Positions 1-43,045 of a stretch of DNA of 49,264 nucleotides are shown one piece after another (positions within the stretch are counted from its first letter, which is position 1; each line of letters opens with the position of its first letter). The notes beneath the pieces are model-generated. The model made no database searches. It had not been told where the DNA came from and saw nothing but the letters and a program-made list of their open reading frames with translations. Origin of the DNA: a virus; IMG/VR virus record IMGVR_UViG_3300023284_002099, positions 1 through 49,264 of that record; one strand, given 5' to 3'. Position numbers and translations under genes: made by a program.

Positions 1-20
1 TCATTCCCCTAGTAGTGGGC

Positions 21-61
21 ACTTTGTGTCTCGAAACAGCCTGTTTTTGGGACACAAAAGT
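21..61. promoter_or_regulatory. Imperfect dyad in the left-end control region
   Basis: The arms actttgtgtc (21-30) and gacacaaaagt (51-61) are complementary with one extra T, and an inner perfect pair aaacag/ctgttt (34-39, 41-46) sits inside them. It could be a protein-binding site, or a hairpin ending a transcript that enters from the other genome end. There is no long T run after it on either strand. Its role is unknown. Confidence 0.4.
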
Positions 62-78
62 GTAGTCAATTTGACTAC
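62..78. promoter_or_regulatory. Perfect 8-bp dyad, candidate operator
   Basis: GTAGTCAA and TTGACTAC are perfect reverse complements separated by one T. The half-site GTCAA/TTGAC recurs at 163-167, 171-175, 178-182 and 198-202, the last being the -35 element of the array promoter. A clustered half-site overlapping a -35 element is typical of a repressor operator, but no repressor was recognised in the window. Confidence 0.45.
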
Positions 79-162
79 AGGCGGTGCTTCGCAGCCGGCC
101 ACTCTGTGGAAATAAATTGTGCGTGGTGTACAAATGGACATCGGGAATTTCTGGAATTTCTA

Positions 163-182
163 GTCAAAGCTTGACGCGTCAA
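163..182. promoter_or_regulatory. GTCAA/TTGAC half-site cluster with 12-bp palindrome
   Basis: TTGACGCGTCAA (171-182) is a perfect palindrome, preceded by another GTCAA at 163-167. It lies 15 bp upstream of the -35 box of the array promoter, so a protein bound here could touch RNA polymerase. The assignment as an operator is inference. Confidence 0.4.
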
Positions 183-197
183 AAAGTAATGGCCCAC

Positions 198-225
198 TTG
201 ACTTCGGCCAATCATAGGGTATACT
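198..225 (+). promoter_or_regulatory. Sigma-70-type promoter for the PRP array
   Basis: TTGACT (198-203) and TATACT (220-225) are spaced 16 bp apart, each one base from consensus. The expected start point, near 232, is the first base of the left arm of the long hairpin at 232-357, so the transcript would begin with that structure and then run into the PRP genes. The opposing operon at the other end of the window has an almost identical promoter (49158-49185). Confidence 0.7.
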
Positions 226-231
226 TGAATA

Positions 232-357
232 GGTTGCTCTACCATGGAACGCATAGGTGGATTTTAGAGTACCACTGAGTCGTATCGAACCTCTAAATCA
301 GTAACGAGCCCTATTACGACTATGGCTGTGACCTATGCGTTCCAGAGTAGAGCAACC
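232..357 (+). ncRNA. Predicted structured leader RNA: 27-nt inverted repeat with inner hairpins
   Basis: The arms 232-258 and 331-357 are complementary at 25 of 27 positions (the two mismatches are mid-stem), enclosing 72 nt. Inside are smaller complementary pairs: 260-269 with 291-299, 278-284 with 315-321 as an alternative, and 307-310 with 324-327. The left arm begins at the predicted transcription start of the promoter at 198-225. The layout resembles a multi-branched RNA closed by a long stem. I do not recognise the family. It could be a leader controlling the array, a free small RNA, a protein-binding RNA or a DNA-level structure such as an origin. The short open frames crossing it have no ribosome site and are judged spurious. 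Confidence 0.5.
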
Positions 358-359
358 GC

Positions 360-416
360 GTGGTCGGCGGGGTGCATAGCCGGCCTGATGACACCGCTAT
401 GCACTCTGCACGCCAC
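360..416 (+). ncRNA. Second leader hairpin directly before the first PRP gene
   Basis: The arms 360-380 and 396-416 pair at 16 of 21 positions, and three of the five mismatches are G-U pairs in RNA. The inner nine pairs (372-380 with 396-404) are perfect and close a 15-nt loop. It begins 3 nt after the end of the first leader structure and ends 6 nt before the AGGA Shine-Dalgarno site of the first array gene. No U tract follows, so it is not a simple terminator. A role in translation control or RNA stability is inference. Confidence 0.45.
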
Positions 417-433
417 ACTACAGGACCAGGGAC

Positions 434-832
434 ATGCCAAACCAAACAAGAGTACTATCCTATCCCACAAGATGTGCCATTGCAGTGCAGGAGGTGACGG
501 GATGGGGAAACACAGTCAAGACAGCCTTGAAAGACCTGATCCGGCAAACACAAAACCTAAAAGGGCTGTCACTCGTTGGCTACAGCCTAAACGGAATAAA
601 TTTTCAGGGATGCGATTTACGGAACAACCACTTCAGGTCCTGCGATCTCAGGTGCTGTAATTTCCAGGACTGTGATTTGCGGAACATCGCCTTCGAGAAC
701 TGTGAACTAAACAACGCTGACTTTCGGGGAGCTAAGATGACGTCAGACTGTAAGATCCTCCTCAAGTATTGCCACCCGTCGGCAATCTTCGGTCCACCAA
801 TGGACGGCAACCAACTACTGCTGGAGTTTTGA
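434..832 (+). CDS. Pentapeptide-repeat protein with C-terminal clamp-binding-like tail (array copy 1)
   Basis: 132 residues. Residues 24-45 form a predicted helix (core TALKDLIRQTQNL) that is conserved through the family. Residues 46-100 are about eleven tandem pentapeptides with L or F at the centre and often C in place of the usual A (for example GCDLRNNHF). PRPs fold as right-handed quadrilateral beta-helices, and some (MfpA, Qnr) imitate DNA and bind gyrase. The last residues, GPPMDGNQLLLEF, end in QLLLEF, which fits the hexameric sliding-clamp-binding motif QLxLx[L/F] placed at the very C-terminus, as in DNA polymerase IV. The start is set by AGGA (422-425) 8 nt upstream and by identity with the other copies. 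The clamp binding is inferred. Confidence 0.88.
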   Translation: MPNQTRVLSYPTRCAIAVQEVTGWGNTVKTALKDLIRQTQNLKGLSLVGYSLNGINFQGCDLRNNHFRSCDLRCCNFQDCDLRNIAFENCELNNADFRGAKMTSDCKILLKYCHPSAIFGPPMDGNQLLLEF

Positions 833-834
833 AT

Positions 835-1233
835 ATGCCAAACCAAACAATAAGAACACCCTCCTTCTCAGACTGTATCATTGAATCGCATGGCGTGACG
901 GGATGGGGAGCGACAGCGAGGGACGCCTTGAAAGACCTGATCAGAAAGACACAAGACCTATCGAATCTTACACTTATTGGCTACAACCTAAACGGAACAA
1001 ATTTTCAAGGATGCGATCTACAGAACAGCCAGTTCAGACACTGCGACCTCATTGGCTGTAATTTCCAGAACTGCGACCTACGGAACATCTTTTTCAAGAG
1101 CTGTGAACTACGCAACTGTGATTTCCGGGGAGCCAAGATGACGAGATCCTGTAAACTTTATCTCCAGTCTCACTATCCGTCGGCGATCTTGGGCCCAGCA
1201 ATGGACGGCAACCAACTACTACTGGAATTTTGA
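835..1233 (+). CDS. Pentapeptide-repeat protein with clamp-binding-like tail (array copy 2)
   Basis: 132 residues, beginning MPNQTIRT. The frame is open further upstream, but the start at 835 matches the paralogs and lies two bases after the previous stop. The SD-like GGAG (824-827) sits inside the preceding gene's tail codons (CTG GAG TTT TGA). The helix is at residues 24-45, the pentapeptides at about 46-100 (core GCDLQNSQFRHCDL), and the tail is GPAMDGNQLLLEF. It is a close paralog of copy 1 with most differences in the exposed repeat positions, suggesting divergence of the surface while fold and tail are kept. Confidence 0.88.
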   Translation: MPNQTIRTPSFSDCIIESHGVTGWGATARDALKDLIRKTQDLSNLTLIGYNLNGTNFQGCDLQNSQFRHCDLIGCNFQNCDLRNIFFKSCELRNCDFRGAKMTRSCKLYLQSHYPSAILGPAMDGNQLLLEF

Positions 1234-1235
1234 GC

Positions 1236-1634
1236 ATGCCAAACCAAACAAGAGTACTATCCTATCCCATAGGCTGTAGAGTTGAGGCTCACGGGGTGAC
1301 GGGATGGGGAAACACAGTCAAGGACGCACTGGAAAACTTGATCCGTAAAACACAAAACCTAGAGGGCCTTGCATTCTTTGGCCACAACCTAAATGGAATA
1401 AATTTTCAAGAGTGTGACTTACGTGGTAACAAATTCGACTCCTGTAACCTCAATGGCTGTAATTTCCAAAACTGTGATCTGAGGAATATAGGGTTCAGAT
1501 GGTGCAAGTTAAAGCGTGCTGACTTCCGGGGAGCTACTATGACGGCAGACTGCAAACGCTTCCTTAAGTTTCACCACCCGTCGGCAATCTTCGGTCCACC
1601 AATGGACGGCGATCAACTACTACTGGAGTTTTGA
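1236..1634 (+). CDS. Pentapeptide-repeat protein with clamp-binding-like tail (array copy 3)
   Basis: 132 residues, beginning MPNQTRVLSY. An in-frame TTG at 1230 would add two residues, but the ATG at 1236 matches all paralogs. The N-terminal block is nearly the same as copy 1, then the repeats diverge (GNKFDSCNLNGCNF, residues 64-77). The tail is PMDGDQLLLEF: here N of DGN is D, as in the tagged proteins of the opposite strand. Its SD is embedded in the end of copy 2. Confidence 0.87.
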   Translation: MPNQTRVLSYPIGCRVEAHGVTGWGNTVKDALENLIRKTQNLEGLAFFGHNLNGINFQECDLRGNKFDSCNLNGCNFQNCDLRNIGFRWCKLKRADFRGATMTADCKRFLKFHHPSAIFGPPMDGDQLLLEF

Positions 1635-1636
1635 GC

Positions 1637-2034
1637 ATGCCAAACCAAATGACAGAAAGACTCTCCCCCGCAAGATGTGCCCTTGAGTCTCAGGGGGTGA
1701 GGGGGTACGGCAACACACACAGAACCGCTTTGGAAGATTTGATCCGGCAAACACAAGACCTAAAGGGGCTGGAATTCACTTGTCGTTATCTAAATGGAGT
1801 AGATTTCCAGGGGAGCAATTTATGTAATAGCAGTTTCAGGTCCTGCAACCTCATTGGCTGCAATTTCCAGAACTGTGATCTGCGGAACATCACCTTCTAT
1901 AATTGTAGACTACGCAACTCTGACTTCCGGGGGCCAAAATGACGGTAGAATGCAAGATCCTCCTCAAATCTCACCACCCGTCGGTGATCTTGGGCCCAGC
2001 AATGGACGGCAACCAACTACTACTGGAGTTTTGA
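1637..2034 (+). pseudogene. Frameshifted pentapeptide-repeat gene (array copy 4) cut before its tail
   Basis: The frame opens at 1637 (MPNQMTERLS) and stops at 1942 after 101 residues, right at the end of the repeats (DFRGPK). The sister copies read ccggggagcc where this copy reads ccgggggcc: one A is missing. Past the stop, the +1 frame continues with the expected sequence MTVECKILLK through PAMDGNQLLLEF to a TGA at 2032-2034. The unit is 400 nt instead of 401, confirming a one-base deletion. As read, the product keeps helix and repeats but lacks the tail. It may be a mutant copy, a sequencing error at the G run, or a natural untagged variant. Confidence 0.85.
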
Positions 2035-2036
2035 GC

Positions 2037-2435
2037 ATGCCAAACCAAACACGAAGTAATCTACCTCTAGAAACCTATATCGTTGAGGCTCAGGGCGGAA
2101 TAGGGTCTGGGAATACAAAAAAGGAAGCCTTGAAAGACCTGATCCGGCAAACACAAAACCTAAATTGGCTGTCACTCGTTGGCTGTAAACTAGACGGAAT
2201 AAATTTTCAAGATTGCGATTTACGAAACACCAGATTCAACTTCTGTAACCTCAAGGGCTGTAATTTCCAGGGCTGTGATCTGAGAAATATAGATTTCAGA
2301 GACTGTAAACTAAACAGAGCTAACTTCCGGGGAGCCAAGATGACGGCAGACTGCAAGATTCTCCTCAAGTTTCACCATCCGTCGGCGATCTTGGATCCAG
2401 AGATGGATGGCAACCAACTACTACTGGAGTTTTGA
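2037..2435 (+). CDS. Pentapeptide-repeat protein with clamp-binding-like tail (array copy 5)
   Basis: 132 residues, beginning MPNQTRSNLP; a much longer upstream reading frame exists but overlaps copy 4 and is rejected. It has the helix block KKEALKDLIRQTQNL, pentapeptides at about residues 46-100 (core CDLRNTRFNFCNLKGC), and the tail PEMDGNQLLLEF. The start follows the stop of the broken copy 4 by two bases, so its translation would not be coupled to that copy's terminating ribosomes (which stop at 1942). It would depend on the embedded GGAG. Confidence 0.87.
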   Translation: MPNQTRSNLPLETYIVEAQGGIGSGNTKKEALKDLIRQTQNLNWLSLVGCKLDGINFQDCDLRNTRFNFCNLKGCNFQGCDLRNIDFRDCKLNRANFRGAKMTADCKILLKFHHPSAILDPEMDGNQLLLEF

Positions 2436-2437
2436 GC

Positions 2438-2815
2438 ATGCCCGCTGAAACACGACGCACCTTTTCCACCGATGAATGCCAGGGGGTAGGAGGCACCCCC
2501 CGGGCTGCGCTGGAAGATTTTATGACCCAAACACGGAATATGAAGAACATTAGCATCTTTAAATTTGATTTAACTGGGATGGACTTCCGGGGGTGTATCT
2601 TTTCAAACGCTCTATTCACGGAATGTAATCTGAGTAACTGTAACTTTCAAGGATGCGATCTGACGGAAGTATTCTTTGCAACTTGCACACTAGACTATGC
2701 TGATTTTCGCGGAGCCAAATTACGAGCAAGGCAGTTAATGGATACCAAACTTTACTGGAAAACAGCGATCTTCGGCCCACCAATTGATGGCAACCAACTA
2801 CTACTGGAGTTCTAA
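2438..2815 (+). CDS. Pentapeptide-repeat protein with clamp-binding-like tail (array copy 6)
   Basis: 125 residues, beginning MPAETRRTFS. The N-terminus is shorter than in copies 1-5 and the helix block is diverged (RAALEDFMTQTRNM). The repeats (core GCIFSNALFTECNLSNCNF) and the tail GPPIDGNQLLLEF remain. It is closest to copy 8, sharing the block GCDLTEVFF. This is the first array member outside the strict 401-nt unit, so it belongs to an older duplication layer. Confidence 0.86.
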   Translation: MPAETRRTFSTDECQGVGGTPRAALEDFMTQTRNMKNISIFKFDLTGMDFRGCIFSNALFTECNLSNCNFQGCDLTEVFFATCTLDYADFRGAKLRARQLMDTKLYWKTAIFGPPIDGNQLLLEF

Positions 2816-2819
2816 AACC

Positions 2820-3218
2820 ATGCCAAATAACTGTATCATTCAATTATGGCCTAACGGATTTTCGGCCAGCTCGCTCAGTCACAGTGTAACAGCTTCCTCG
2901 CCCAAAGAGGCCTTGGAACGTCTACTCAGTAAAACCAAAGCCCTCCCCAATCTCCTCGCAAGCGGGTATGATCTCAGTGGTGTAGACTTTCGGGGCTGCG
3001 ACATAAGCAACAGTAAATTTGAAGCGTGTAACATGCGCAATTGCGATTTTCGCGACTGTGACCTCTTGTCTACCTACTTTCCGCTTTGCGTCCTGGACCA
3101 CACCGACTTTCGCGGAGCCATCGTGCGCGACACATTTATCCGGAAACTAGAACTCGATTGGCCACTCGCAAAGCACATCTCGCTAATCGACGGCAACCAA
3201 CTCCTTTTGAGGTTCTAA
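2820..3218 (+). CDS. Pentapeptide-repeat protein, tail variant QLLLRF (array copy 7)
   Basis: 132 residues, beginning MPNNCIIQLW. The start at 2820 follows GGAG in the previous tail codons and two bases of ACC-type spacer. The N-terminus is the most diverged of the first group (helix KEALERLLSKTKAL). Repeats include GCDISNSKFEACNMRNCDF. The tail is IDGNQLLLRF: the E of the usual QLLLEF is R, a position that is free in the hexameric clamp motif (QLxLxF). The R codon AGG creates GAGG, the probable SD for the next gene. Confidence 0.85.
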   Translation: MPNNCIIQLWPNGFSASSLSHSVTASSPKEALERLLSKTKALPNLLASGYDLSGVDFRGCDISNSKFEACNMRNCDFRDCDLLSTYFPLCVLDHTDFRGAIVRDTFIRKLELDWPLAKHISLIDGNQLLLRF

Positions 3219-3220
3219 GC

Positions 3221-3601
3221 ATGCCTAGCGAAACACAAGTATGTAGATTTACTGTACATAAATATCAAGGTATTGGATCCACCCCCCAAGCCGCTCTAAA
3301 AGACCTCATCAGGCAAACACAAAACCTAACTTACGTTCGTACAGGTTTTAAAGATTTGAGTGGAGTGGATTTTCGGGGTTGTAATCTGAAACATACTGAA
3401 TTCTATACTTGTGATCTAACCGAATGTAATTTTCAAGGATGCGATCTGACGGAAGTTTTCTTTTCAAATTGCACATTTGATTACACCAACTTCCGTGGAG
3501 CTACACTACACCAACCAAGGCGGGAGTACCTAGAAAGAAATTGGCCGAGCGCTTTACTCGGTCCAGCAATCGACGGCAATCAACTATTACTGGAGTTTTA
3601 A
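3221..3601 (+). CDS. Pentapeptide-repeat protein with clamp-binding-like tail (array copy 8)
   Basis: 126 residues, beginning MPSETQVCRF. It has the helix block QAALKDLIRQTQNL, repeats from about residue 46 (core GCNLKHTEFYTCDLTECNF), and the tail PAIDGNQLLLEF. The start at 3221 is two bases after the previous stop. The sequence resembles copy 6 in the second half (GCDLTEVFF), suggesting these two arose from one ancestor, separated by copy 7. Confidence 0.86.
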   Translation: MPSETQVCRFTVHKYQGIGSTPQAALKDLIRQTQNLTYVRTGFKDLSGVDFRGCNLKHTEFYTCDLTECNFQGCDLTEVFFSNCTFDYTNFRGATLHQPRREYLERNWPSALLGPAIDGNQLLLEF

Positions 3602-3603
3602 TT

Positions 3604-3969
3604 ATGTCCTACACACTTTTAGTACAAGGAATTTACGCCAGAGGAGCCACCCACGCTGAATGTCTATTGAATTTTATGGCCCAAACTAAGGATCTAAGTA
3701 CGATAAGCACTGACCATGGTGACTTCAGAACAATAGATTTTAGGGGCTGTACCTTTGATACTAATGAATTTTATTCATGTGATTTTGATCACTGTAATTT
3801 CCAGGGGTGCGATTTGGTACGTGTTAATTTCCGTAATTGCTTCTTTAATCGCACAGACTTCCGAGGAGCTATACTGTCGAAATCAACCAGACAAGAAATC
3901 GAAGAAAATTGGCCAACCGCTATCTTCGGCCCGCCGATCGACGGCAACCAATTACTGTTGGAGTTCTAA
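3604..3969 (+). CDS. Pentapeptide-repeat protein with clamp-binding-like tail (array copy 9)
   Basis: 121 residues, beginning MSYTLLVQGI, with a shortened N-terminus. It has helix AECLLNFMAQTKDL, repeats IDFRGCTFDTNEFYSCDFDH and following, and the tail PPIDGNQLLLEF. The start at 3604 is preceded by GGAG inside the tail codons of copy 8. Phenylalanine is the central residue in most pentapeptides here, a common PRP variant. Confidence 0.85.
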   Translation: MSYTLLVQGIYARGATHAECLLNFMAQTKDLSTISTDHGDFRTIDFRGCTFDTNEFYSCDFDHCNFQGCDLVRVNFRNCFFNRTDFRGAILSKSTRQEIEENWPTAIFGPPIDGNQLLLEF

Positions 3970-4317
3970 ATGATCGATATTTGTAAAAACGATGGTCGGT
4001 TGGTTACACGGAGTCGAACCGCAAAGACTGCAATGGACTTTATGATACGCATTGGATGCAATCTAGTGGGTTTGAATCTCTCGTCCATGGACTTGAGCAA
4101 TATGGATTTATCTGGTCAGGATTTCGGCCTCTGTGATTTCAACCACGCGAACCTCAGGGGCTGTGATCTGCGTGACACGCTTCTCGATGGTTGTTGTATG
4201 TACTACGCGGACTTGCGGGGTGCTATATTAAATTCAGATACACGTGTTGACCTCCGGTACTCGGATCACGTTTTACTCGGTCCCTTCGCCGACGGCAACC
4301 AACTCTTACTGTTTTAA
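3970..4317 (+). CDS. Pentapeptide-repeat protein ending QLLLF (array copy 10, second subfamily)
   Basis: 115 residues, starting directly after the stop of copy 9 with GGAG 6 nt upstream. It opens the second subfamily: the helix block is now SRTAKTAMDFMIRIG and the repeats are rich in LS pairs (LDLSNMDLS-like, residues 36-60). It ends FADGNQLLLF at the extreme C-terminus. QLLLF is the pentameric sliding-clamp motif QLxLF, one residue shorter than the QLLLEF of earlier copies. The DNA CTGTTT at this point has no SD, so the motif is kept without any role in translation of the next gene. Confidence 0.85.
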   Translation: MIDICKNDGRLVTRSRTAKTAMDFMIRIGCNLVGLNLSSMDLSNMDLSGQDFGLCDFNHANLRGCDLRDTLLDGCCMYYADLRGAILNSDTRVDLRYSDHVLLGPFADGNQLLLF

Positions 4318-4321
4318 GACT

Positions 4322-4678
4322 ATGACACGAATATACAACATATACAACGAATACCGATTCAGAGGTGAGACGGCTAAATTGGCTCTCATAGATCACATGA
4401 ATGCTGGTTACACTTTTGCTAACCTAGACCTAAGTTATTTTGATTTAAGTGGAACTGATTGGGCGAATCGACGCTTTGGTAGGTCAAACTTAATAGGAAC
4501 TAATTTCAGCAATTGCAACCTCCTAGGTGCCGACTTTAGCACGTGCCAGATGGATGGTACTGATTTTACAGGGGCTCAGATTGATTCTCGTCTCCGTAAA
4601 CAGTTGAGTAAATGGCCCAGTGCAATAATTAGACCTATGGACGGCAACCAACTCCTGCTATTCTCGGATGTACGATGA
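4322..4678 (+). CDS. Pentapeptide-repeat protein, internal QLLLF (array copy 11)
   Basis: 118 residues from ATG 4322 (MTRIYNIYNE); the longer upstream frame overlaps copy 10. It has the second-subfamily helix ETAKLALIDHMN and repeats from about residue 40 to 92 (core GTNFSNCNLLGADF). The tail is PMDGNQLLLF followed by SDVR, so the clamp-like pentamer is four residues from the end. The stop overlaps the next start (ATGA), indicating coupled translation. Confidence 0.84.
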   Translation: MTRIYNIYNEYRFRGETAKLALIDHMNAGYTFANLDLSYFDLSGTDWANRRFGRSNLIGTNFSNCNLLGADFSTCQMDGTDFTGAQIDSRLRKQLSKWPSAIIRPMDGNQLLLFSDVR

Positions 4679-5025
4679 TTAAGGTATACAATATCTGGCA
4701 AGGGTACGTATTTAGCGGTAAGACCGCCAAGTCTGCCCTTATAGACCACATGCACCGGGAGGGCACTGCTTTTTGCAATCTGGATCTGAGTCATTTTGAT
4801 TTGAGTCACGCTGATTGGGGATTCAAAAACTTTGACCATGCAGATTTAACAGGAACTAATTTCAGGTACTGCAACCTGGTAGGCGCTCATTTCAACAACT
4901 GTGTTATGGATCATACTGATTTTACAGGGGCGGTGATTGATTTAATTCTTTTCAACCAACTAAAGAAATGGCCTAATGCAATCTTTCAACCCGTTGACGG
5001 CAACCAACTCTTACTGGATTTCTAA
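4675..5025 (+). CDS. Pentapeptide-repeat protein ending QLLLDF (array copy 12)
   Basis: 116 residues, start overlapping the previous stop (ATGA at 4675-4678). It is a close relative of copy 11 (helix KTAKSALIDHMH, repeat core GTNFRYCNLVGAHF). The tail is PVDGNQLLLDF, the hexameric type with D before F, which is the form used by the small tagged proteins encoded on the opposite strand. Confidence 0.85.
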   Translation: MIKVYNIWQGYVFSGKTAKSALIDHMHREGTAFCNLDLSHFDLSHADWGFKNFDHADLTGTNFRYCNLVGAHFNNCVMDHTDFTGAVIDLILFNQLKKWPNAIFQPVDGNQLLLDF

Positions 5026-5027
5026 AA

Positions 5028-5423
5028 ATGATTCAACTTCTTGCCAGAGATGGTAGACTCATAGTACAGGGTAGAACTGCAAAAATCGCATTACAACTTC
5101 GTATGGATGGACACGGAGTTGATCGTAATAGGGCAATTGATTATTTAGATTTATCAAATCTAGATTTGAGTCATATGTATTTGAAAAATCAAAACTTAAA
5201 TAGTTGTGATCTTACTAATACTAACCTCCAGGGTTGTGATCTTCGAGGTGTACGTCTTTGCGGCTGTATTATGATAAAAACAGATTTTCGAGATGCTCAG
5301 TTTGATGAACATATGATTTTCGATGAATCATTCCAAGATTGTATTTTTGGTCCACTAATGGATGGCAACCAACTCTTAATGGACTTTTACGGGGGAGTAC
5401 GATGGTCCAGATTCTCAATGTAA
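5028..5423 (+). CDS. Pentapeptide-repeat protein, internal QLLMDF (array copy 13)
   Basis: 131 residues, starting two bases after the previous stop. It has helix RTAKIALQLRMD and repeats LDLSNLDLSHMYLKNQNL and following, to about residue 95. The tag is PLMDGNQLLMDF and is followed by eleven extra residues that run into the next gene, with which it overlaps by 22 nt. The extension contains the GGGGGAG Shine-Dalgarno for copy 14, so it probably reflects a shifted gene junction. Confidence 0.82.
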   Translation: MIQLLARDGRLIVQGRTAKIALQLRMDGHGVDRNRAIDYLDLSNLDLSHMYLKNQNLNSCDLTNTNLQGCDLRGVRLCGCIMIKTDFRDAQFDEHMIFDESFQDCIFGPLMDGNQLLMDFYGGVRWSRFSM

Positions 5424-5761
5424 ATGGGTTCTATATCGTAAGCGGCGAGACAGCTAAGGATGCCCTTTTATCGCACCTGCGGCGGGGGAGAACCCTGCAC
5501 TTTCTAAACTTGAGGGGGTTGGATTTAAGTGACTCCGACTGGAGTAACGTAGATTTCGGCGAGTCTGATTTAACAGGAACTAATCTAAGATTCTGTAATT
5601 TGGTAGGTGTCAATTTTTACGATTTTATTTTAGAAAAAACTGATTTACGTGGATCGAAATTTGATTTCGGTCTGGAAGCCATACTTCAAATGTGGCCGAC
5701 CTGTAGACACCAACCGTGTGATAAGAGTGGCCAGCTTCTACTCTTTCCCCTATCAGCCTAA
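5402..5761 (+). CDS. Pentapeptide-repeat protein with GQLLLF tail (array copy 14, last)
   Basis: 119 residues from ATG 5402 with GGGGGAG just upstream. It has the second-subfamily helix ETAKDALLSHLR and repeats at about residues 38-88 (core GLDLSDSDWSNVDF). The tag is CDKSGQLLLFPLSA: the usual DGN is replaced by KSG, but QLLLF is intact. The stop (5759-5761) overlaps the stop of dnaN on the other strand (5758-5760), so array and clamp operon converge with no terminator between them. Confidence 0.84.
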   Translation: MVQILNVNGFYIVSGETAKDALLSHLRRGRTLHFLNLRGLDLSDSDWSNVDFGESDLTGTNLRFCNLVGVNFYDFILEKTDLRGSKFDFGLEAILQMWPTCRHQPCDKSGQLLLFPLSA

Positions 5762-6849
5762 CGGTCCTTGACCAAGGGCATAATCACGTGCTGGTATTCA
5801 TCCTCTGTGGAGCAAATGATAGGGCTCTCTGCATCTTTGATCTCCATCTGGAATGCTTGCTCGTGGTCAAGAGACTTTAAAAAATCGATCACGTACCTGT
5901 AATCAAGTGAAGTTGTAATTTGTGGCCCGTCATAAAAGATAGGTAACTCGACGCGGGACTTCCCCACCCCCCCCGCCTCTCCAGTCAAAACTAGTTTTCT
6001 CCCACCAAAGGTGAAAACAAGACCACGATTACAACGGTTTGTAGCTATCGCAGCCTGCCTAATCGCAGAGAGTACTTCACCAACACCAAGCACAATGCTC
6101 GTAGCCTCCCTCTCACTCGGGAAGACATCACGCCACTTCGGAAAACGTCCTTCCGATAGGGAGAAATAGATGGTTGTTTCAGGGCTTTCTAGTATGGCCA
6201 GTCCGTCACGACACGTAATCTGAACTTCTGTATCATTATCGGGAAAAGCCCGCCCCACCAGCTGCATGGCCCGCATAGGGATGATTACAGTACACTCCCC
6301 ACCATCATGGCCCTGCACCGCCTCGGCCGTGACCTCTGTTGTCACCAAGCGACGCCCATCTGTCCCAACTGCTATGATTTTGTTGTCCTCGAACTCCAGC
6401 AGGATGCCACCCAACGCATACCGATTGTCTTCTGTATCTGTAGCATACAGTGTGCGTCGAATAATTTCCTGGAGCAGGCGTGATTCCACTTTGTGGAACT
6501 GATCTTCGTTGGCTGGGTCTACGATATCACATTGCCTGGGGTTTTGGGCGGGGAACTTAAATTCGCTTTGCCCACTGCGCACCACGACACTTCCCCTATC
6601 CACCTTGATACTCAGTTTCTCTTCGGTACTTTCCCGCAGGATGTCCCCAAATTTCCGGACAGGTAAGACAACACTGCCAGCGGTTTTGACAGTTACCCCT
6701 GGAATGTTGATACGAATGTCTGCGATTTCGCTCCCGCCCATTATAACACAGCCCTCCGCATCGGTTGCTACTAGAATATTACTCAAGTTCAAAACGGCAA
6801 TAATTTGAAAAGCCGACAACAACTTCTCACGCTCGCAGATAATTTTCAT
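5758..6849 (-). CDS. dnaN: DNA polymerase III beta subunit (sliding clamp)
   Basis: 363 residues, the usual length of bacterial beta clamps (about 366). It forms a ring dimer that slides on DNA and holds polymerases through a pocket between domains 2 and 3. Family marks seen: the start MKIICEREKLLSAF, VRSGQSEFKFP (91-100), and the pocket segment GTDGRRL (162-168), which equals TDGHRL of E. coli. The C-terminal HVIMPLVKDR (354-363) corresponds to YVIMPMRL of E. coli. The known clamp-peptide pocket is therefore present. AAAGGAAAG precedes the ATG. It is the last gene of the minus operon, behind small proteins carrying clamp-binding-like tails, and faces the PRP array. A phage clamp without a phage polymerase in view suggests it serves host Pol III (inference). 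Confidence 0.95.
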   Translation of the reverse strand: MKIICEREKLLSAFQIIAVLNLSNILVATDAEGCVIMGGSEIADIRINIPGVTVKTAGSVVLPVRKFGDILRESTEEKLSIKVDRGSVVVRSGQSEFKFPAQNPRQCDIVDPANEDQFHKVESRLLQEIIRRTLYATDTEDNRYALGGILLEFEDNKIIAVGTDGRRLVTTEVTAEAVQGHDGGECTVIIPMRAMQLVGRAFPDNDTEVQITCRDGLAILESPETTIYFSLSEGRFPKWRDVFPSEREATSIVLGVGEVLSAIRQAAIATNRCNRGLVFTFGGRKLVLTGEAGGVGKSRVELPIFYDGPQITTSLDYRYVIDFLKSLDHEQAFQMEIKDAESPIICSTEDEYQHVIMPLVKDR

Positions 6850-6860
6850 AACACTTTCCT

Positions 6861-7067
6861 TTAATCATTGAAATCCAATAGGAGTTGATCTCCGTCCTTC
6901 GGTTTTTCTTGTACAACTTTAATTTCTCCATAGTTAACATAGGTAAGGTTATCTTTTGCATGGCTGGCATAGGTAAGATTACCATCACCTATCCTTAATT
7001 GAATAGTTTCACCAGTTGTATCATCTGTTAAACTCCAGGTATACCCATTCAAAACAATTCTTGGCAC
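6861..7067 (-). CDS. Small protein with C-terminal QLLLDF tag, next to dnaN
   Basis: 68 residues from GTG 7067, with AGGAG in the end of the preceding gene as SD. The body (MPRIVLNGYTWSLTDDTTGE and on) looks like a short beta-strand domain, not a pentapeptide repeat, and is not recognised. It ends KPKDGDQLLLDFND, the same DG[N/D]QLLL tag as the PRP array on the other strand. Immediately upstream of dnaN, so co-expression with the clamp is nearly certain. Confidence 0.75.
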   Translation of the reverse strand: MPRIVLNGYTWSLTDDTTGETIQLRIGDGNLTYASHAKDNLTYVNYGEIKVVQEKPKDGDQLLLDFND

Positions 7068-7068
7068 A

Positions 7069-7257
7069 CTAATCTCCTAAGTCTAGTAAGAGTTGATCTC
7101 CATCTCTTGGTTTTTTGTTCATGTTTCCCAATAACTGCCCACAAGCCTCAAGCCACCCGTGGGGTTTGGAGTGTATAACAAGGTTTCGGACGTAGACGCT
7201 ATCCACCCAGTCTGACGGGGTCATGTCTTTGATTACAAATCTTATTTCATTCGACAT
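7069..7257 (-). CDS. Small protein with C-terminal QLLLDL tag
   Basis: 62 residues, beginning MSNEIRFVIKD. The first residues resemble those of the 98-residue protein two genes upstream (MPGEIRFIVYQ), suggesting a shared N-terminal strand. It ends RDGDQLLLDLGD; QLLLDL fits the hexameric clamp motif with L at the last position, as in E. coli Pol IV (QLVLGL). The terminal codons TTA GGA GAT contain the SD of the next gene. Function unknown. Confidence 0.72.
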   Translation of the reverse strand: MSNEIRFVIKDMTPSDWVDSVYVRNLVIHSKPHGWLEACGQLLGNMNKKPRDGDQLLLDLGD

Positions 7258-7266
7258 GATTCAACC

Positions 7267-7512
7267 TTATATGAATATACGCCAATTACTAACTTGTATC
7301 CATTTGTTCTCCTGCCAATCAGGAAATTCATTATTTTGAATGCGCTGTACAAGGACTTCAATTATTTTCTCACCCATCGTATCAGGTTCTTCTGAAAACG
7401 TGTTAAAATAACGATTAGATAATAGCTGTCTAAGCAGCCCTCCCTCAAGGATACGCGTGGAACCCTTACCAATTTCTATGGCGGCTTCTTCAAAAGTAGG
7501 AAATCTATTCAT
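7267..7512 (-). CDS. Hypothetical 81-residue protein, untagged
   Basis: The start is set at ATG 7512 (MNRFPTFEEA), two bases after the preceding stop; an upstream TTG would overlap that gene. It is mostly alpha-helical with an acidic-basic mix and ends QVSNWRIFI. It is the one gene in this stretch without a QLL-type tail. Its place among tagged genes suggests the same process, but nothing more can be said. Confidence 0.65.
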   Translation of the reverse strand: MNRFPTFEEAAIEIGKGSTRILEGGLLRQLLSNRYFNTFSEEPDTMGEKIIEVLVQRIQNNEFPDWQENKWIQVSNWRIFI

Positions 7513-7514
7513 TT

Positions 7515-7811
7515 TTAAGCCCAATCAAAAAGCAATTGTTCGCCATCACGAGGCACAGCCCCTGACTCAAACTTCGTCAATTTTCTCCATAATACACTTT
7601 CTTCAAAGGAACCGGGTGAGGCATTCCACCATTCGTTCACCATAGTTTTTAATTTTTTGAAATCTTTCCAATCTTCAGCTTGTATATCAGCATAATAAGA
7701 ATTGTGACTATAATCACTTCTTTGTAAACTAAAACTCATTCGGATTAGATTTTCTCTACGGAAATCCTGCCGACCGCTTTGGTAAACTATAAATCTTATT
7801 TCACCAGGCAT
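7515..7811 (-). CDS. Small protein with QLLFDW tail (paralog pair, member 2)
   Basis: 98 residues (MPGEIRFIVY). Shares with the upstream 99-residue protein the pattern SLEES/SFEESVLWRKL and the end RDGEQLLFDW. The tail here is DGEQLLFDWA: Q and both leading L are as in the clamp motif, and the aromatic end residue is W rather than F, as in QL-type motifs ending in W known from some clamp binders. The body is predicted alpha/beta with conserved tryptophans (EWWNASPGSFEES) and was not recognised. Confidence 0.72.
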   Translation of the reverse strand: MPGEIRFIVYQSGRQDFRRENLIRMSFSLQRSDYSHNSYYADIQAEDWKDFKKLKTMVNEWWNASPGSFEESVLWRKLTKFESGAVPRDGEQLLFDWA

Positions 7812-7814
7812 GAT

Positions 7815-8114
7815 TCAAACCCAATCAAAAAGCAATTGTTCGCCATCACGATGCAGACCTTGTAATGAAATCCTCTTCAACCTTCGCCACAATGCACTTT
7901 CTTCAAGGGAACCAGGCGGAGAAGTCCACCATCTTTGTACAAAGTCTTTTATGTCTCTAAAATCTTCATAACCTTTAGCTTGTATATCTATTTCTTCATA
8001 ATTTTTAGAATGATCCATTCTAACTAATTCAAAGTATAAATGAAGAAGACTGGTTTTACGTGAATGAGGATAACCTCGTTCATCCGTGGAATCTGTAAAT
8101 GGATGGTATGTCAT
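7815..8114 (-). CDS. Small protein with QLLFDW tail (paralog pair, member 1)
   Basis: 99 residues (MTYHPFTDST). Aligns with the following gene through AKGYEDFRDIKDFVQRWW, SPPGSLEESALWRRL and the end HRDGEQLLFDWV, so the two are a recent duplication. Same clamp-like tail. The duplicated tail and the divergent first 40 residues repeat on this strand the evolutionary pattern seen in the PRP array: variable body, constant tail. Confidence 0.72.
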   Translation of the reverse strand: MTYHPFTDSTDERGYPHSRKTSLLHLYFELVRMDHSKNYEEIDIQAKGYEDFRDIKDFVQRWWTSPPGSLEESALWRRLKRISLQGLHRDGEQLLFDWV

Positions 8115-8121
8115 AGGTCAA

Positions 8122-8691
8122 TTAGTTCCAATGTAATGGTTCACACCCTTGATTGGTTATTCTTACGTTGGCGAACCTTGAACCCATGCCCAAATTACGT
8201 AGGTTTCCGCACCCAACGAATCCACATTCGTCGAAGGTTACGCACTCCCAGTCCATGTCTGCAAATCTACAACCAGAAAACTCACAATTACGGAACGAAA
8301 TACCATACATACATGATCTAATAAAAACACAATCAAAAAATTTCACACCCCTCAATACAACATTTTTGAAGTTAGTCCCTTCAAAATTGGAACAGGAAAA
8401 CTCGGAGCGTGAGATAGCACCATTACGTATATCAGCATTTGCAAAGTCTAGGTATTCTCCGTTAGTATTTATCCAGGATAGCTGCTCCCAAAACGCCCTA
8501 CGGAATTTGCAACTACCAAGGGATGAATCTGTCAATTGCAATGAGTTCCATGTACACCCGCACAGGGCCAAATGATCCCAGAGCTTGTTTGACACCACCA
8601 TGTGACTAAGAAAATGCCCACTGAGATCCATAGGATATACCTGCTGTTCTCTTATTAACAGTTCTCGAACGTCCGTCGATAAAAGTGGCAT
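8122..8691 (-). CDS. Pentapeptide-repeat protein without tag (larger)
   Basis: 189 residues, near the size of MfpA (183). Degenerate pentapeptides run from about residue 40 to 175 (for example NFEGTNFKNVVLRGVKF and CEFSGCRFADMDW), enough for about six beta-helix coils. No QLLL tail: it ends GCEPLHWN. The start overlaps the stop of the upstream PRP gene (TAATG). It shares the fold with the opposing array but neither the helix block nor the tail, so it is a more distant relative. A role as DNA mimic is possible by family only. Confidence 0.8.
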   Translation of the reverse strand: MPLLSTDVRELLIREQQVYPMDLSGHFLSHMVVSNKLWDHLALCGCTWNSLQLTDSSLGSCKFRRAFWEQLSWINTNGEYLDFANADIRNGAISRSEFSCSNFEGTNFKNVVLRGVKFFDCVFIRSCMYGISFRNCEFSGCRFADMDWECVTFDECGFVGCGNLRNLGMGSRFANVRITNQGCEPLHWN

Positions 8692-9083
8692 TACACTTGT
8701 CCCCCATATTTGCAGTTGTTAAAGGTGACTTGCCTGTCTAAAGGGAACCAAGGCGGCCGCGCAACAAACAAACAGTCATTAAAACTGACCGCTGCTAGAA
8801 TGGTCCCACTGAAGAAACTACGCGAAAATACACAGTTTATGAAAGAGCAGTGTTCAATTTCAGTACAATCAAACTCAGCCCTGGTTAAATTGCACCACGC
8901 GAAGTGGCAGCCTTCCAACCTGTGTACGTTAGAAAAGTTTACTCCGTGCATATCACAATGTTTGAATTGAAACCCCCGTTCTACTTCCCCGTACAAGACG
9001 GCATCACTAAAATCCATGCGTTCAAAAAGCTTGTAATTCTGTGACTTGTAAAAATAGTTGGTATTTTTTGAAATTATGTTCAC
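8691..9083 (-). CDS. Pentapeptide-repeat protein without tag (smaller)
   Basis: 130 residues from a GTG that overlaps the upstream stop (TAGTG). Repeats run from about residue 20 to 105 (FSDAVLYGEV, FKHCDMHGVNFSNV, FAWCNLTRAEFDC, FINCVFSRSFFSG). Ends FNNCKYGGQV, with no clamp-like tail. Directly coupled to the larger untagged PRP, so the two may work together or form a hetero-pair. Function unknown. Confidence 0.75.
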   Translation of the reverse strand: MNIISKNTNYFYKSQNYKLFERMDFSDAVLYGEVERGFQFKHCDMHGVNFSNVHRLEGCHFAWCNLTRAEFDCTEIEHCSFINCVFSRSFFSGTILAAVSFNDCLFVARPPWFPLDRQVTFNNCKYGGQV

Positions 9084-9400
9084 TAGTTCCCCAACAATAT
9101 ACTAACAAATCCTTTAGTTTCTTCTTCCAGGTGCTCATCGGAGCACACCATTGGCTGTGATAAGTAGTGCATTGAGTACGTCATTACGCTAGTTGCTTTC
9201 TCGTACTCATCAACTGAACTGTCTAGAATCTCTTGAATCCCCGCTCTATATTCCCAGGGAGTGATACCAACTATAAAACCATGTCGTTCTAGTGAACGAG
9301 ATTGTACGTCCCATGTTCGTAGAGCCCCGCATCGGGATACCAGTTCAACACGGACCCTCTGGAAGAGTGGAAACATCTTATAACCTCTTGGGGAGTACAC
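9083..9400 (-). CDS. Hypothetical 105-residue protein
   Basis: Start GTG 9400 with AAAGGAA 6-7 nt upstream; an internal ATG at 9376 (MFPLFQRVRV) is an alternative. The sequence suggests an alpha/beta fold with a helical, acidic C-terminal half (EEETKGFVSILLGN). Not recognised. It lies in the operon between an unknown 203-residue protein and the untagged PRPs. Confidence 0.65.
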   Translation of the reverse strand: MYSPRGYKMFPLFQRVRVELVSRCGALRTWDVQSRSLERHGFIVGITPWEYRAGIQEILDSSVDEYEKATSVMTYSMHYLSQPMVCSDEHLEEETKGFVSILLGN

Positions 9401-9412
9401 GTGAAATTCCTT

Positions 9413-10021
9413 TCAATCGTCTTCAGAAGCAGTACCGTCATACTTCTTACGAAGTTCGGCATTTATCTTCAGAATCTTGTTCATAAGTCTGTAGAGATTC
9501 GCAGCGTAGAGCAAGATTTGTTCTTGAGTGTGCTCCTCCTCCTCCTCACTGAGGGCTCCTATCTCCACATTGTGGCCGGCGATGTAGATTTCGCCCCGTA
9601 TGGCTATCATCGCCTGGATTTCGTTATAGAGTTCAGGGAAGCGCAATGCCCGCACTATAAGAGGATGAGAAACAAAATCATCCATTTCCTGCTGGAGATA
9701 CGGGGCCACATCGTCCATAGTTATGGCTATTTTTGGTACTCCTGGCCGAAGCTGTTCACGCGAGACAGTAATAGATGTTCCGTTTTCCAGAGTCGACGCG
9801 GGGAGTTTCACTAATACGAGGTTTCCTGACTCCTTTAGAACAGTGACTTTTAATCGACCCTTCACCTCGTCCCCTTCTGTGGAGAGCGTGTCGCACTCTA
9901 CATCATCTTGAGGGACGAAGAGTGAGAATCCAGTGCCGTCGTGAGCCTTGCCATACACGGCGAGTTCATCACTGAACTGTCCAAGGGAGATCGTGCAAAT
10001 CAACCACGCTTGTTTACCCAT
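9413..10021 (-). CDS. Hypothetical 202-residue protein of the clamp operon
   Basis: Start chosen at ATG 10021 (MGKQAWLICT) with GGGGG upstream; an ATG at 10033 is possible. The first half is beta-rich with charged loops, then comes a helical segment (VAPYLQQEMDDFVSHPLIVRAL region). It ends in a strongly acidic stretch (GALSEEEEEHTQEQ) and a basic-acidic tail. No family recognised. As an early operon member it may bind nucleic acid or a host protein, but this is only a guess. Confidence 0.7.
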   Translation of the reverse strand: MGKQAWLICTISLGQFSDELAVYGKAHDGTGFSLFVPQDDVECDTLSTEGDEVKGRLKVTVLKESGNLVLVKLPASTLENGTSITVSREQLRPGVPKIAITMDDVAPYLQQEMDDFVSHPLIVRALRFPELYNEIQAMIAIRGEIYIAGHNVEIGALSEEEEEHTQEQILLYAANLYRLMNKILKINAELRKKYDGTASEDD

Positions 10022-10113
10022 ATGAGCCCCCATCGAGAAAACACAAAGCCCTCACAGTTCAATAAAAGGCTGGCGCGTGTTGTTTTGGCGTAATAGTACC
10101 CTATTTTTAGCAT

Positions 10114-10521
10114 TTATTTGGCTTTTTTGCTCTCAATCAGGAAGAATTTGCGGATTATGGACCCTTTTCCCCGCTTGCTCATCATCTTGGAGCGTTTAGA
10201 GGTCATCTTGCCCAGGCTGGTCGTGATTAGAGCTCCCGACTGTTCAACCCAGAGAACTCGGCCGACCTTGGTCTCTGAATACCAAGCTTTTCCGAAGTCT
10301 GGGGCCGTAGGATCATACAGCATGTAGGCATACACCACTGAATCAGGGGCGCCCTCCGTTCCCATCTGCATCAGGGGCTGTGGTAGCATGACTGGAGCGT
10401 CTTTTTGGACCCGGTCCAGGAGGATCAGAAGTAGGACCACCCCTGCTCCAAGCAGGAAAAAAATCTGCTTCGCCCCTATACTATCCCACCAAGCACTGAT
10501 TTTCTGTACGAATTCTTCCAT
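10114..10521 (-). CDS. Single-pass membrane protein, first gene of the clamp operon
   Basis: 135 residues from ATG 10521, preceded by GGAGAG at 6 nt spacing; an ATG at 10536 is upstream but lacks an SD. One hydrophobic segment at about residues 19-37 (FFLLGAGVVLLLILL) is followed by a soluble part, with a Lys/Arg/Ser-rich end (residues 108-135). N-in or N-out is unclear. It could anchor something at the membrane. Not recognised. Confidence 0.7.
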   Translation of the reverse strand: MEEFVQKISAWWDSIGAKQIFFLLGAGVVLLLILLDRVQKDAPVMLPQPLMQMGTEGAPDSVVYAYMLYDPTAPDFGKAWYSETKVGRVLWVEQSGALITTSLGKMTSKRSKMMSKRGKGSIIRKFFLIESKKAK

Positions 10522-10569
10522 TGTTGCTCTCCACATTAGGATAAAATGCTGTATTTTTACACCTGCTAT

Positions 10570-10598
10570 AGTTTACCACAGTTTATCAAAGAAAGCAA
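10570..10598 (-). promoter_or_regulatory. Promoter of the clamp operon
   Basis: Read on the minus strand, TTGCTT (10598-10593) and TAAACT (10575-10570) are 17 bp apart. The downstream start would lie near 10563, about 40 nt before the ATG at 10521. It diverges from the late-side genes beginning at 10712. Confidence 0.5.
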
Positions 10599-10682
10599 AC
10601 GTGCCTCACAGAAATTATTTTGACTATTTTAACGATTTTTCCGGATTTAGTGATTTTCTCTGCTCAGATTCGGGTAATTTCA

Positions 10683-10700
10683 CTATACTATATAGTATAG
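10683..10700. promoter_or_regulatory. Perfect 18-bp palindrome before the plus-strand operon
   Basis: CTATACTATATAGTATAG is its own reverse complement and ends 11 bp before the ATG at 10712. It includes TATACT and TATAGT, so it could overlay the -10 element of a promoter as an operator. A clear -35 is not seen. In RNA it could form a hairpin near the start codon. Confidence 0.45.
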
Positions 10701-10711
10701 GAACTACAATA

Positions 10712-11260
10712 ATGCCATTGAAACGTGTTACAGACGAGTCAGATCCTCGCCGATGCAAGGCTGCATCCCTTGATGGACAGTGTAGAAACATAAGTGAAGA
10801 GGGATATGAGTACTGTCTGGCCCACGGAGGGGTTGCTTCAGACGGCCAGGAAGCCCTGCGCCTGTATATGCTCACGCGAGAGACAGAACAGCATAAGCTA
10901 AACAAGCTTGTTTCCCACAATGGCATAAAGTCGCTCCGAGAAGAAATCACCCTTGCCAGAATCCTGCTGGAAAAAATTTGGAATTCTGTATCTGAGGATA
11001 CAGCCGATATCCTGCGATCTTCTGGACAGATAAATCAAATATTGTTGACGATCGAGCGATTGGTCCGGTCGGCCAGCCTGCTAGAAGAACGATCCAGCGT
11101 TTTACTTGAAAAAACCACAGTGATACACATCGCAAACGCCATGTGCGATACCCTCACTGAGGAATTGAATGGTGTCGAGAACTACGAATTGATAATCGAC
11201 AAGATCCACACCAGGATGTGCACAATCATCGCTGAGGCAGAAAACGAACACACGGAGTAG
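10712..11260 (+). CDS. Zinc-finger-like protein, candidate small terminase or DNA-binding protein
   Basis: 182 residues from ATG 10712 (MPLKRVTDES). Residues 11-36 hold C-x8-C-x10-C-x2-H followed by GG (from RRCKAASLDGQC to CLAHGG), a zinc-binding pattern often found in phage proteins encoded just before terminase genes. The rest is helical (ALRLYMLTRETEQHKL and on) and suited to oligomerisation, as in small terminases that bind packaging sites. The large terminase is 3.7 kb downstream, so the link is not close. The small-terminase call is an inference. Confidence 0.6.
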   Translation: MPLKRVTDESDPRRCKAASLDGQCRNISEEGYEYCLAHGGVASDGQEALRLYMLTRETEQHKLNKLVSHNGIKSLREEITLARILLEKIWNSVSEDTADILRSSGQINQILLTIERLVRSASLLEERSSVLLEKTTVIHIANAMCDTLTEELNGVENYELIIDKIHTRMCTIIAEAENEHTE

Positions 11261-11804: not shown

Positions 11805-12527
11805 ATGAAAATCCTATTTTCTGTTATTGGTATCGGGATCCTTTTGGTCGGTGGATACGTCCTCCAAGTATCACAGACCAGCGAGTCAACTTACGCTCAA
11901 ACTACAAATACTGACCCAGAAAAAGACGGCCCCACGGTAATTATTACCGCACCAAAGACTATTAAGATCGGGGGCTTGATCGTAATAGATGCCAGTAAAA
12001 GTGATGGCACTGGCTTCGATTTCAAGGTTTTCCCCGAGCCGAAGTACCTCCGGGTTGATTCTGATGGGAAGCGGATCTACTGTGGAACAGGAAACACACA
12101 TACTGAGTTCCTCTTCATAGTGTCCTGTGCAAAAAACGGAAAATCAAAAATCGGCCTGCACAGAATCAAAATCATTGGCAAAGATTTACCCCCCGTTGAA
12201 GTCACAGTAACCGATTTGGTACTAGATTGGTTTGAATCTGTAGATTCAGATATGAAAATTGTTGAAGCGAATCGCCTAGGACAGTCCTTCTCAAGTATTG
12301 CCACACTCATCGAGAATGGCACCCTCACGACTCCCGAACAAATCATAAACGCTACCGCCAAGTCCAACGTGGATGCTCTTGGAGAAAACTTAGCAGCTTG
12401 GAAGCCATTTCTTGATGCACTTATCATTAAACTTGATAGACTGGCAGAACAAGGAAAATTGACCACGTCAAGTCAGCACGCTGTTATTTGGAGAGAAGTG
12501 GCAACAGCACTCAAAACTATGGAGTAA
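11805..12527 (+). CDS. Exported protein with Ig/PKD-like domain
   Basis: 240 residues from ATG 11805, one base after the previous stop. Residues 1-28 form a signal peptide or anchor (MKILFSVIGIGILLVGGYVL, then QVSQTSESTYA). Residues 38-130 have the look of an Ig/PKD-type beta domain (GPTVIITAPKTIKIGGLIVI and SKSDG). The C-terminal 110 residues are helical. It is followed by a Tat-signal protease and a thioredoxin, all apparently exported. Its target is unknown. Such proteins are unusual in phages and might act in the periplasm at lysis or superinfection. Confidence 0.65.
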   Translation: MKILFSVIGIGILLVGGYVLQVSQTSESTYAQTTNTDPEKDGPTVIITAPKTIKIGGLIVIDASKSDGTGFDFKVFPEPKYLRVDSDGKRIYCGTGNTHTEFLFIVSCAKNGKSKIGLHRIKIIGKDLPPVEVTVTDLVLDWFESVDSDMKIVEANRLGQSFSSIATLIENGTLTTPEQIINATAKSNVDALGENLAAWKPFLDALIIKLDRLAEQGKLTTSSQHAVIWREVATALKTME

Positions 12528-12535
12528 CAGTCAAC

Positions 12536-13560: not shown

Positions 13561-13689
13561 ATGATTCGTTTCGACCCTGACAGTGACAGTATTATTGAGG
13601 AACCAGAGGATGACATTTTTAGGTCTTTTAGCTACCTCATTACGTCTGATTTTTCTTACCTGTACACCGTTGACGGAGAACAGCAATGA
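13561..13689 (+). CDS. Acidic 42-residue peptide
   Basis: ATG 13561 lies 8 nt after AGGAGGG (13546-13552), one of the strongest ribosome sites in the window. The product MIRFDPDSDSIIEEPEDDIF continues to 42 residues, very acidic in the first half and aromatic in the second (SYLITSDFSYLYTV). It overlaps the N-terminal part of the thioredoxin frame in another frame, so either this peptide or the longer thioredoxin start is real, or both are. Function unknown. Confidence 0.5.
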   Translation: MIRFDPDSDSIIEEPEDDIFRSFSYLITSDFSYLYTVDGEQQ

Positions 13690-14134
13690 GGAAATGGCTT
13701 CGATTCAAGCGTCTGATGCGGTATGTTCTGTTTCGCCTGTCGAAGGGGAAACCTATCAATTGGTCTCGACAGTTGGCCAAACTCGCAAAAATCCTAAACT
13801 TAAAATGATCCACCCTTCACTTCTGAAGGGGGATAAGAACTTGAATTTAGTTGTGATGTATACAGGAACGTGGTGCGCTCCATGCCGTCTTATGTACCAG
13901 ACGGTTGAGGATCTACGTAAACAAGGTTACATCGTTTACCTGATAGACGTTGATGATCACCCCACTTTCGCTGAAAAAAATAAAATCGCAGCGGTTCCTA
14001 CTTTTGTGTTTTTTGATAAAGGCCGAGAAACGATTCGCTTAGTCGGGCTGACTAACATTTCCGAATTCAAAAAGCACCTGAAGACGAGATCAAAGCAGCG
14101 CAGCATACGATCTATTTTACGGAGTTTGTATTGA
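13610..14134 (+). CDS. Thioredoxin-like protein, probably exported
   Basis: 174 residues from ATG 13610, with GAGGA 8-9 nt upstream. The N-terminus (MTFLGLLATSLRLIFLTC) looks like a signal or anchor segment. The thioredoxin domain has the active site WCAPC (W88) and the cis-Pro segment AAVPTFVFF. A second possible start is ATG 13805 (109 residues, the normal thioredoxin size, no signal), which overlaps the stop of a 40-residue basic ORF (13686-13808) as ATGA. The protein reduces or exchanges disulfides. Beside an exported Cys protease it may keep that enzyme active. The domain call is firm, the start is not. Confidence 0.8.
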   Translation: MTFLGLLATSLRLIFLTCTPLTENSNEEMASIQASDAVCSVSPVEGETYQLVSTVGQTRKNPKLKMIHPSLLKGDKNLNLVVMYTGTWCAPCRLMYQTVEDLRKQGYIVYLIDVDDHPTFAEKNKIAAVPTFVFFDKGRETIRLVGLTNISEFKKHLKTRSKQRSIRSILRSLY

Positions 14135-23189: not shown

Positions 23190-23201
23190 AGGTTATTTGA
23201 T

Positions 23202-23561: not shown

Positions 23562-23575
23562 CAACGGTATTTAAC

Positions 23576-43004: not shown

Positions 43005-43045
43005 AGAGATTGAAGAAATTATATCTTAAACACGGAGAATGCGTA

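Follow-up and report, generated by a model that had tools for sequence, protein, structure and literature searches.

Why would a virus surround the gene of a sliding clamp with many small genes whose products end in almost the same short peptide? This question is raised by the IMG/VR virus record IMGVR_UViG_3300023284_002099, which was analysed over its whole 49,264 bases (hereafter the window); this record has linear ends and is possibly a fragment. Fourteen genes encoding pentapeptide-repeat proteins (PRPs), 13 intact and one frameshifted, lie in tandem on the plus strand (positions 434–5761) and carry QLL[LM](x)F tails (hereafter tags) beside dnaN, an arrangement that the initial annotation had described and that the present analysis confirms. 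Four other small genes, unrelated to the PRP genes and not mentioned in the initial annotation, carry a similar tag on the other side of dnaN. The reading favoured here, which we hold to be reasonably likely, is that the tags would dock the PRPs and these four small proteins on the clamp, where their variable faces would block or recruit partners as interchangeable clients.

The first argument comes from the tag itself. Natural clamp-binding motifs follow Q-aliphatic-x-[L/M][F/L] or Q-aliphatic-x-[L/M]x[F/L]; the tightest binders are QLxLF and QLxLxF, the length of the motif (five or six residues) matters little, acidic flanks are common and the top phage-display peptide is LQLELDF (PMC11139829, a 2024 review). 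The array displays both lengths of the high-affinity consensus, with D/E flanks. QLLLEF is found in eight PRPs (frameshifted copy included), QLLLF in three, and QLLLRF, QLLLDF and QLLMDF in one each; DGN or DGD precedes the tag in 13 of the 14 copies and DKSG precedes that of PRP 14. The tagged-tail peptides include PPMDGNQLLLEF, ADGNQLLLF, RDGDQLLLDLGD and RDGEQLLFDWA, and the general form Q-aliphatic-x-[L/M](x)[F/L] is found in all 14 PRP copies and in two of the four other small proteins (62 and 68 residues). Among planctomycete proteins, one Y-family polymerase (Pol IV) carries RQLSLF, and DnaE-type proteins carry QQNLF, QKNLF or QKTLF. Judging from these sequences, the tagged proteins probably dock on a sliding clamp.

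The PRP genes (about 115–132 codons each) overlap or almost touch their neighbours and form an operon-like run. PF00805 matches above the Pfam cut-off (tandem A(D/N)LXX repeats, E-values from 2e-10 to 9e-18) were obtained for the three members tested with Pfam (PRPs 1, 6 and 12), and a search with a profile of the family matched 14 of 14 copies. The tail reads DGNQLLLEF in PRP 1 (434–832), PRP 2 (835–1233), PRP 5 (2037–2435), PRP 6 (2438–2815), PRP 8 (3221–3601) and PRP 9 (3604–3969), DGDQLLLEF in PRP 3 (1236–1634), DGNQLLLRF in PRP 7 (2820–3218), DGNQLLLDF in PRP 12 (4675–5025) and, with a five-residue tag, DGNQLLLF in PRP 10 (3970–4317). In PRP 4 (1637–2034), the frameshifted copy, the frame of the body ends at 1942 and DGNQLLLEF is open in another frame; the frameshift is close to a G run (CCGGGGGCC, within 1900–1975) and reflects either an assembly error or a truly broken copy. 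The tag is strictly C-terminal in 11 of the 14 copies and is followed by other residues in three, namely PRP 11 (4322–4678, DGNQLLLF then SDVR), PRP 13 (5028–5423, DGNQLLMDF then YGGVRWSRFSM) and PRP 14 (5402–5761, SGQLLLF then PLSA).

The dnaN gene (5758–6849, minus strand) is convergent with the array, its stop codon overlapping that of PRP 14, and it thus lies between two tagged groups, the 14 PRP genes and the four minus-strand genes located upstream of dnaN. The latter encode proteins of 68 residues (6861–7067, tail DGDQLLLDFND), 62 residues (7069–7257, DGDQLLLDLGD), 98 residues (7515–7811, DGEQLLFDWA) and 99 residues (7815–8114, DGEQLLFDWV), the last two sharing 45% identity. None of the four has a significant match to a Pfam or PHROG family, a single sub-threshold Pfam match being at chance level. 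Just beyond this tagged cluster, two divergent PRPs (8122–8691 and 8691–9083) are devoid of tag. As four non-PRP proteins carry the tag while two PRPs lack it, the tag can be considered a module: it is not a fixed feature of the PRP family, and one or more further protein types bear it.

How exceptional is such a tag? Within the last 20 residues, the strict motif QLx[LM](x)F is absent from all 48 gene-like open reading frames that the window holds beyond the cluster. Of 3,898 gene-like open reading frames from 215 other loci, a single distinct gene has it. The window contains 42 CARYTNYTNYT (CAR-YTN-YTN-YT) sites, compared with 12.1 ± 3.6 in shuffled sequences. These data bear on the possibility that the tag is a linear motif for some other target (an adaptor of a protease, the packaging of virions or a different hub protein of the phage) and that its adjacency to dnaN is accidental. 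Shared C-terminal tags can act as degrons or cargo signals, the window encodes a ClpP-type protease (43010–43624, PF00574, E-value 1e-30) late in the structural module, and the docking of the tags on the clamp is itself predicted. However, the tags reproduce the clamp consensus exactly and in both lengths, every tagged gene flanks dnaN with none elsewhere in the window, and the background of the strict motif is only about 1 in 3,900. The degron version is further lowered because three tags stop short of the extreme C-terminus, a position ill-suited to a C-degron. As a whole, this explanation appears improbable.

The single background gene encodes a 724-residue SNF2/ResIII-type helicase (locus L008, 4535–6709) whose C-terminal end is QLSLFEQFMGAKR (QLSLFEQF). 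Its gene is situated 1.3 kb upstream of the nearest phage-encoded clamp, the top-scoring one in the scans of viral sequences, and this helicase is likely, from its terminal motif, to be another clamp client. In the Microcystis phage Mae-JY04 (locus L001, 9180–10616), an N6/N4 DNA methyltransferase encoded directly downstream of dnaN has a clamp-binding-like end, QIDLFGAVA. The helicase and the methyltransferase provide two further cases of a protein with such a tail beside a phage dnaN.

Is the tag maintained for the sake of the protein? Among the 13 intact paralogues, DGNQLLLxF has the lowest nonsynonymous divergence of 100 nine-residue windows. The ratio of nonsynonymous to synonymous divergence (pN/pS) is 0.04 for QLLL+F, where pS still reaches 0.69, and 0.57 for the body. 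Within the closest set of four paralogues, it is 0.05 for the L/F repeat centres, 0.08 for the tag and 1.1 for one outward repeat class; all these ratios are descriptive only, since the paralogues recombine and are not independent. Such a substitution pattern is the one that would be expected if an invariant tag were attached to a folded scaffold whose surface changes, and it bears out the 'variable bodies, constant tails' of the initial annotation.

At the junctions located between 820 and 3606, the tag codons CTG GAG TTT TGA (CTGGAGTTTTGAgcATG) also hold the Shine-Dalgarno sequence GGAG of the next PRP gene, about 8 bases ahead of its start. At the PRP 7 junction, where E is replaced by R, the codons TTG AGG (TTGAGG) retain a Shine-Dalgarno-like word, and the need for such a word may shape the E/R position of the tag. 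Could gene conversion, or the Shine-Dalgarno sequence needed by the following gene, be all that keeps the tail, the protein ending having no function? QLLL is located upstream of the Shine-Dalgarno sequence and is constrained at the protein level despite synonymous change; PRP 14 retains the tag with no co-directional gene after it, and the minus-strand tags use other codons, which do not include GGAG. This explanation is thus extremely improbable. Conservation through the Shine-Dalgarno sequence only is rejected for QLLL+F, as these residues are also kept at places that require no such sequence.

Which clamp would these proteins meet? The dnaN product shows the three Pfam clamp domains, belongs to PHROG 947 (E-value 4e-44) and is planctomycete-like with a canonical peptide pocket. 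Although it is only 48–50% identical overall to its nearest cellular relatives, 19 of the 20 mapped positions of its pocket carry the residue of the planctomycete majority, and R152, L155, T172, G174, R176, L177, P242, V247, V360 and M362 are the same as in Escherichia coli. In a clamp tree, the phage protein branches among Pirellulales clamps, grouped with mostly Pirellulaceae sequences (support 95/84) and with an end branch of 0.94. This position points to a host that is probably a planctomycete and to a clamp that was probably captured from a planctomycete. Other phage clamps were gathered by an alignment-based DnaN scan of viral contigs. Seven of those encoded by IMG/VR phages (L091, L092, L093, L104, L107, L114 and L119) form a supported clade beside planctomycete clamps; their pocket residues are almost the same, no PRPs or tags were found nearby, and they perhaps represent a wider group of clamp-carrying planctomycete phages.

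As the pockets of host and phage clamps appear alike, the tags should not discriminate between the two. This matters for the main functional rival of the favoured reading, a host take-over in which the tailed proteins would be made early and in bulk, occupy every pocket on the host clamp and so halt the replication and repair of host DNA, the phage clamp being a later reserve ring. A high-affinity consensus carried by 13 intact PRP genes and four others, as well as their tight operon-like run, would suit such a saturation, and clamp-targeting phage inhibitors do exist, such as Gp168 of phage Twort (PMC11139829). However, Gp168 acts at the DNA channel and not at the pocket, the phage clamp would be poisoned too, since it has the planctomycete pocket, and one abundant protein would suffice, so that the diversified bodies would be left unexplained. 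Weakened by the common pocket and by the diversity of the bodies, saturation of the host clamp seems unlikely.

What would be displayed on the clamp? An AlphaFold2 model of PRP 1, computed with its paralogues, shows a beta-helix of three coils (about residues 46–103) between a beta/alpha cap at the N-terminus and a cap helix at the C-terminus. The core has a predicted confidence score (pLDDT) of 84–98, and the last 12 residues have a pLDDT of 51–64 and no secondary structure. The initial annotation had raised the case of a tail buried in the PRP core, and the PRP 1 model places it outside. Foldseek searches with this model retrieved mostly PRPs, the best PDB match being MfpA (2bm4, E-value 3e-4), which is also among the sequence-profile matches. 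The initial annotation had gone on to propose that the docked proteins display a DNA-like beta-helix, possibly as decoys of the MfpA and Qnr type that would draw defence proteins with an affinity for DNA off the fork. The fold and the matches to MfpA go in this direction, but the TM-score to MfpA is only 0.48 on the query, the core comprises about 58 residues in three coils, and the net charge of the PRPs lies between −6 and +3, with basic proteins (isoelectric point 8.0–8.5) in the first four intact copies, quite unlike the long acidic MfpA/Qnr rods. DNA mimicry is very improbable for these proteins, and it is rejected on size and charge. The decoy or arms-race role that the initial annotation read from the tandem expansion is a guess.

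Taken as a whole, the following model can be drawn for the favoured reading, that of interchangeable clamp clients. The C-terminal tags would be beta-clamp-binding motifs that dock the diversified small PRP solenoids and the four other small proteins in the peptide pocket of the phage clamp, and probably also in that of the host clamp, its pocket being the same. The docked proteins would compete for the pocket or share it and display their variable outward faces, each member blocking or recruiting a different partner at phage replication forks. The step from tag to predicted docking is well supported: the clamp-binding tails proposed in the initial annotation are consistent with the consensus, the selection acting on them, the presence of the tag on unrelated neighbours, the pocket of the clamp and the unburied tail, and the docking itself stands as a prediction. 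The step from docking to effect, as well as the clamp that is used, is what we infer from this arrangement. A more ambitious version remains tentative: the phage would possess a clamp-occupancy system combining a captured planctomycete clamp with a combinatorial set of tag-docked solenoids, whose diversified faces would capture distinct host factors of replication, repair or defence, one per member, and so rewire what works on the phage clamp.

Several points weigh against docked clients. The QLLFDW of the 98- and 99-residue pair departs from the strict consensus, with F at position 4 and W in last position, and a terminal W such as that of DGEQLLFDW weakens clamp binding according to the review cited above (PMC11139829), so that clamp binding by this pair is less sure. 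A read-through fold (AlphaFold2), in which translation of the 62-residue tailed protein was carried on into dnaN, which shares its frame, and glycine took the place of stop codons, gave a good clamp (matches to PDB clamps, E-value about 1e-29) and drew QLLLD as a strand with a pLDDT of about 50; this fold speaks neither for nor against docking. A high-affinity tag on many proteins might also hinder the host polymerase, which is presumably needed by the phage, as no polymerase was recognised in the window. Lastly, as no homologous array was found in the searched data, the arrangement has no evolutionary replication.

The search for PRPs with such tags near dnaN, suggested in the initial annotation, retrieved no similar array in viral contigs, phage and plasmid records or Pirellulales genomes. 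In viral contigs, single-sequence scans with the terminase and DnaN gave no relatives, the closest four-member PRP subgroup had none either, and the exact tag patterns were found nowhere else. No PRP was detected by a profile scan of 80 dnaN loci and seven other loci, and phage and plasmid records gave only partial PRP matches (29–55% identity). In the order of Blastopirellula, a slightly wider tag pattern was found in none of 397 genomes and PRP arrays (E-value 1e-15) in none of 147. Relatives of the capsid protein (48–50% identity, on contigs of up to 88 kb) occur without clamp and PRPs, on contigs that may be fragments. Sensitivity was low in part of these searches, which relied on exact patterns, on fragments or on samples at the level of the order, and uniqueness is to be read as 'not found here'. 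Likewise, the literature on PRPs and clamps, and on clamp binding and anti-phage defence, yielded no described system, in agreement with the initial statement that none of this shape was known. Each component (PRPs, clamp motifs, phage clamps) is known on its own; the searched data contained no other array of tag-bearing PRPs grouped about a clamp. The array hints at a means, not described before, by which a virus could crowd or equip the clamp.

If this is true, the phage uses its sliding clamp as a programmable docking hub for many variable small proteins through one tag, and clamp biology, so far a matter of single clients, would come to include a client family encoded by many genes. It would also give a new role to PRPs, for which, to our knowledge, a partner is often lacking, and would indicate a clamp-based phage-host conflict in Planctomycetota, whose phage biology is, as far as we know, little known.

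Elsewhere in the window, the structural region includes three tandem paralogous genes encoding proteins of 118–119 residues (22833–23935). The gene at 12488–13543 encodes a protein without Pfam match that combines an RR-type signal with an NSWG motif of papain-like type, and the next gene (13583–14134) encodes a thioredoxin-like protein. Promoter and terminator scans of positions 1–11000 gave site counts no higher than those of shuffled sequences.

How does this locus compare with known systems? The canonical beta-clamp clients (E. coli Pol IV, with QLVLGL, Pol II and Hda) likewise carry QLxL(x)[F/L] at an exposed end, and the phage clamp retains the pocket residues that the tag of such clients would meet. 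However, these clients are polymerases, repair enzymes or regulatory enzymes, whereas here the tag is borne by non-enzymatic PRP solenoids encoded by a 14-gene array. With MfpA, Qnr and AlbG, the PRPs share the right-handed pentapeptide beta-helix (PF00805/PF13599, and the Foldseek match to MfpA), but they are short, with about three coils, are not acidic and have an added clamp tag. MfpA and Qnr form long dimeric rods of about eight or more coils.

In phage T4, gp43, gp55 and gp33 carry interchangeable C-terminal clamp epitopes (PMC2988020), which sets a precedent for the principle. As in the predicted system, unrelated phage proteins bind their own clamp, gp45, through one short acidic-hydrophobic C-terminal tag. 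Nevertheless, the T4 clients are a polymerase, a sigma-like factor and a co-activator, whereas the tailed proteins described here have no recognised transcription or polymerase domain, those searched giving no Pfam or PHROG match to an RNA polymerase or sigma-like domain. Twort Gp168 is likewise a phage protein aimed at a bacterial sliding clamp; it is the product of a single gene and blocks the DNA channel, whereas the array described here is a gene family with pocket-type tags.

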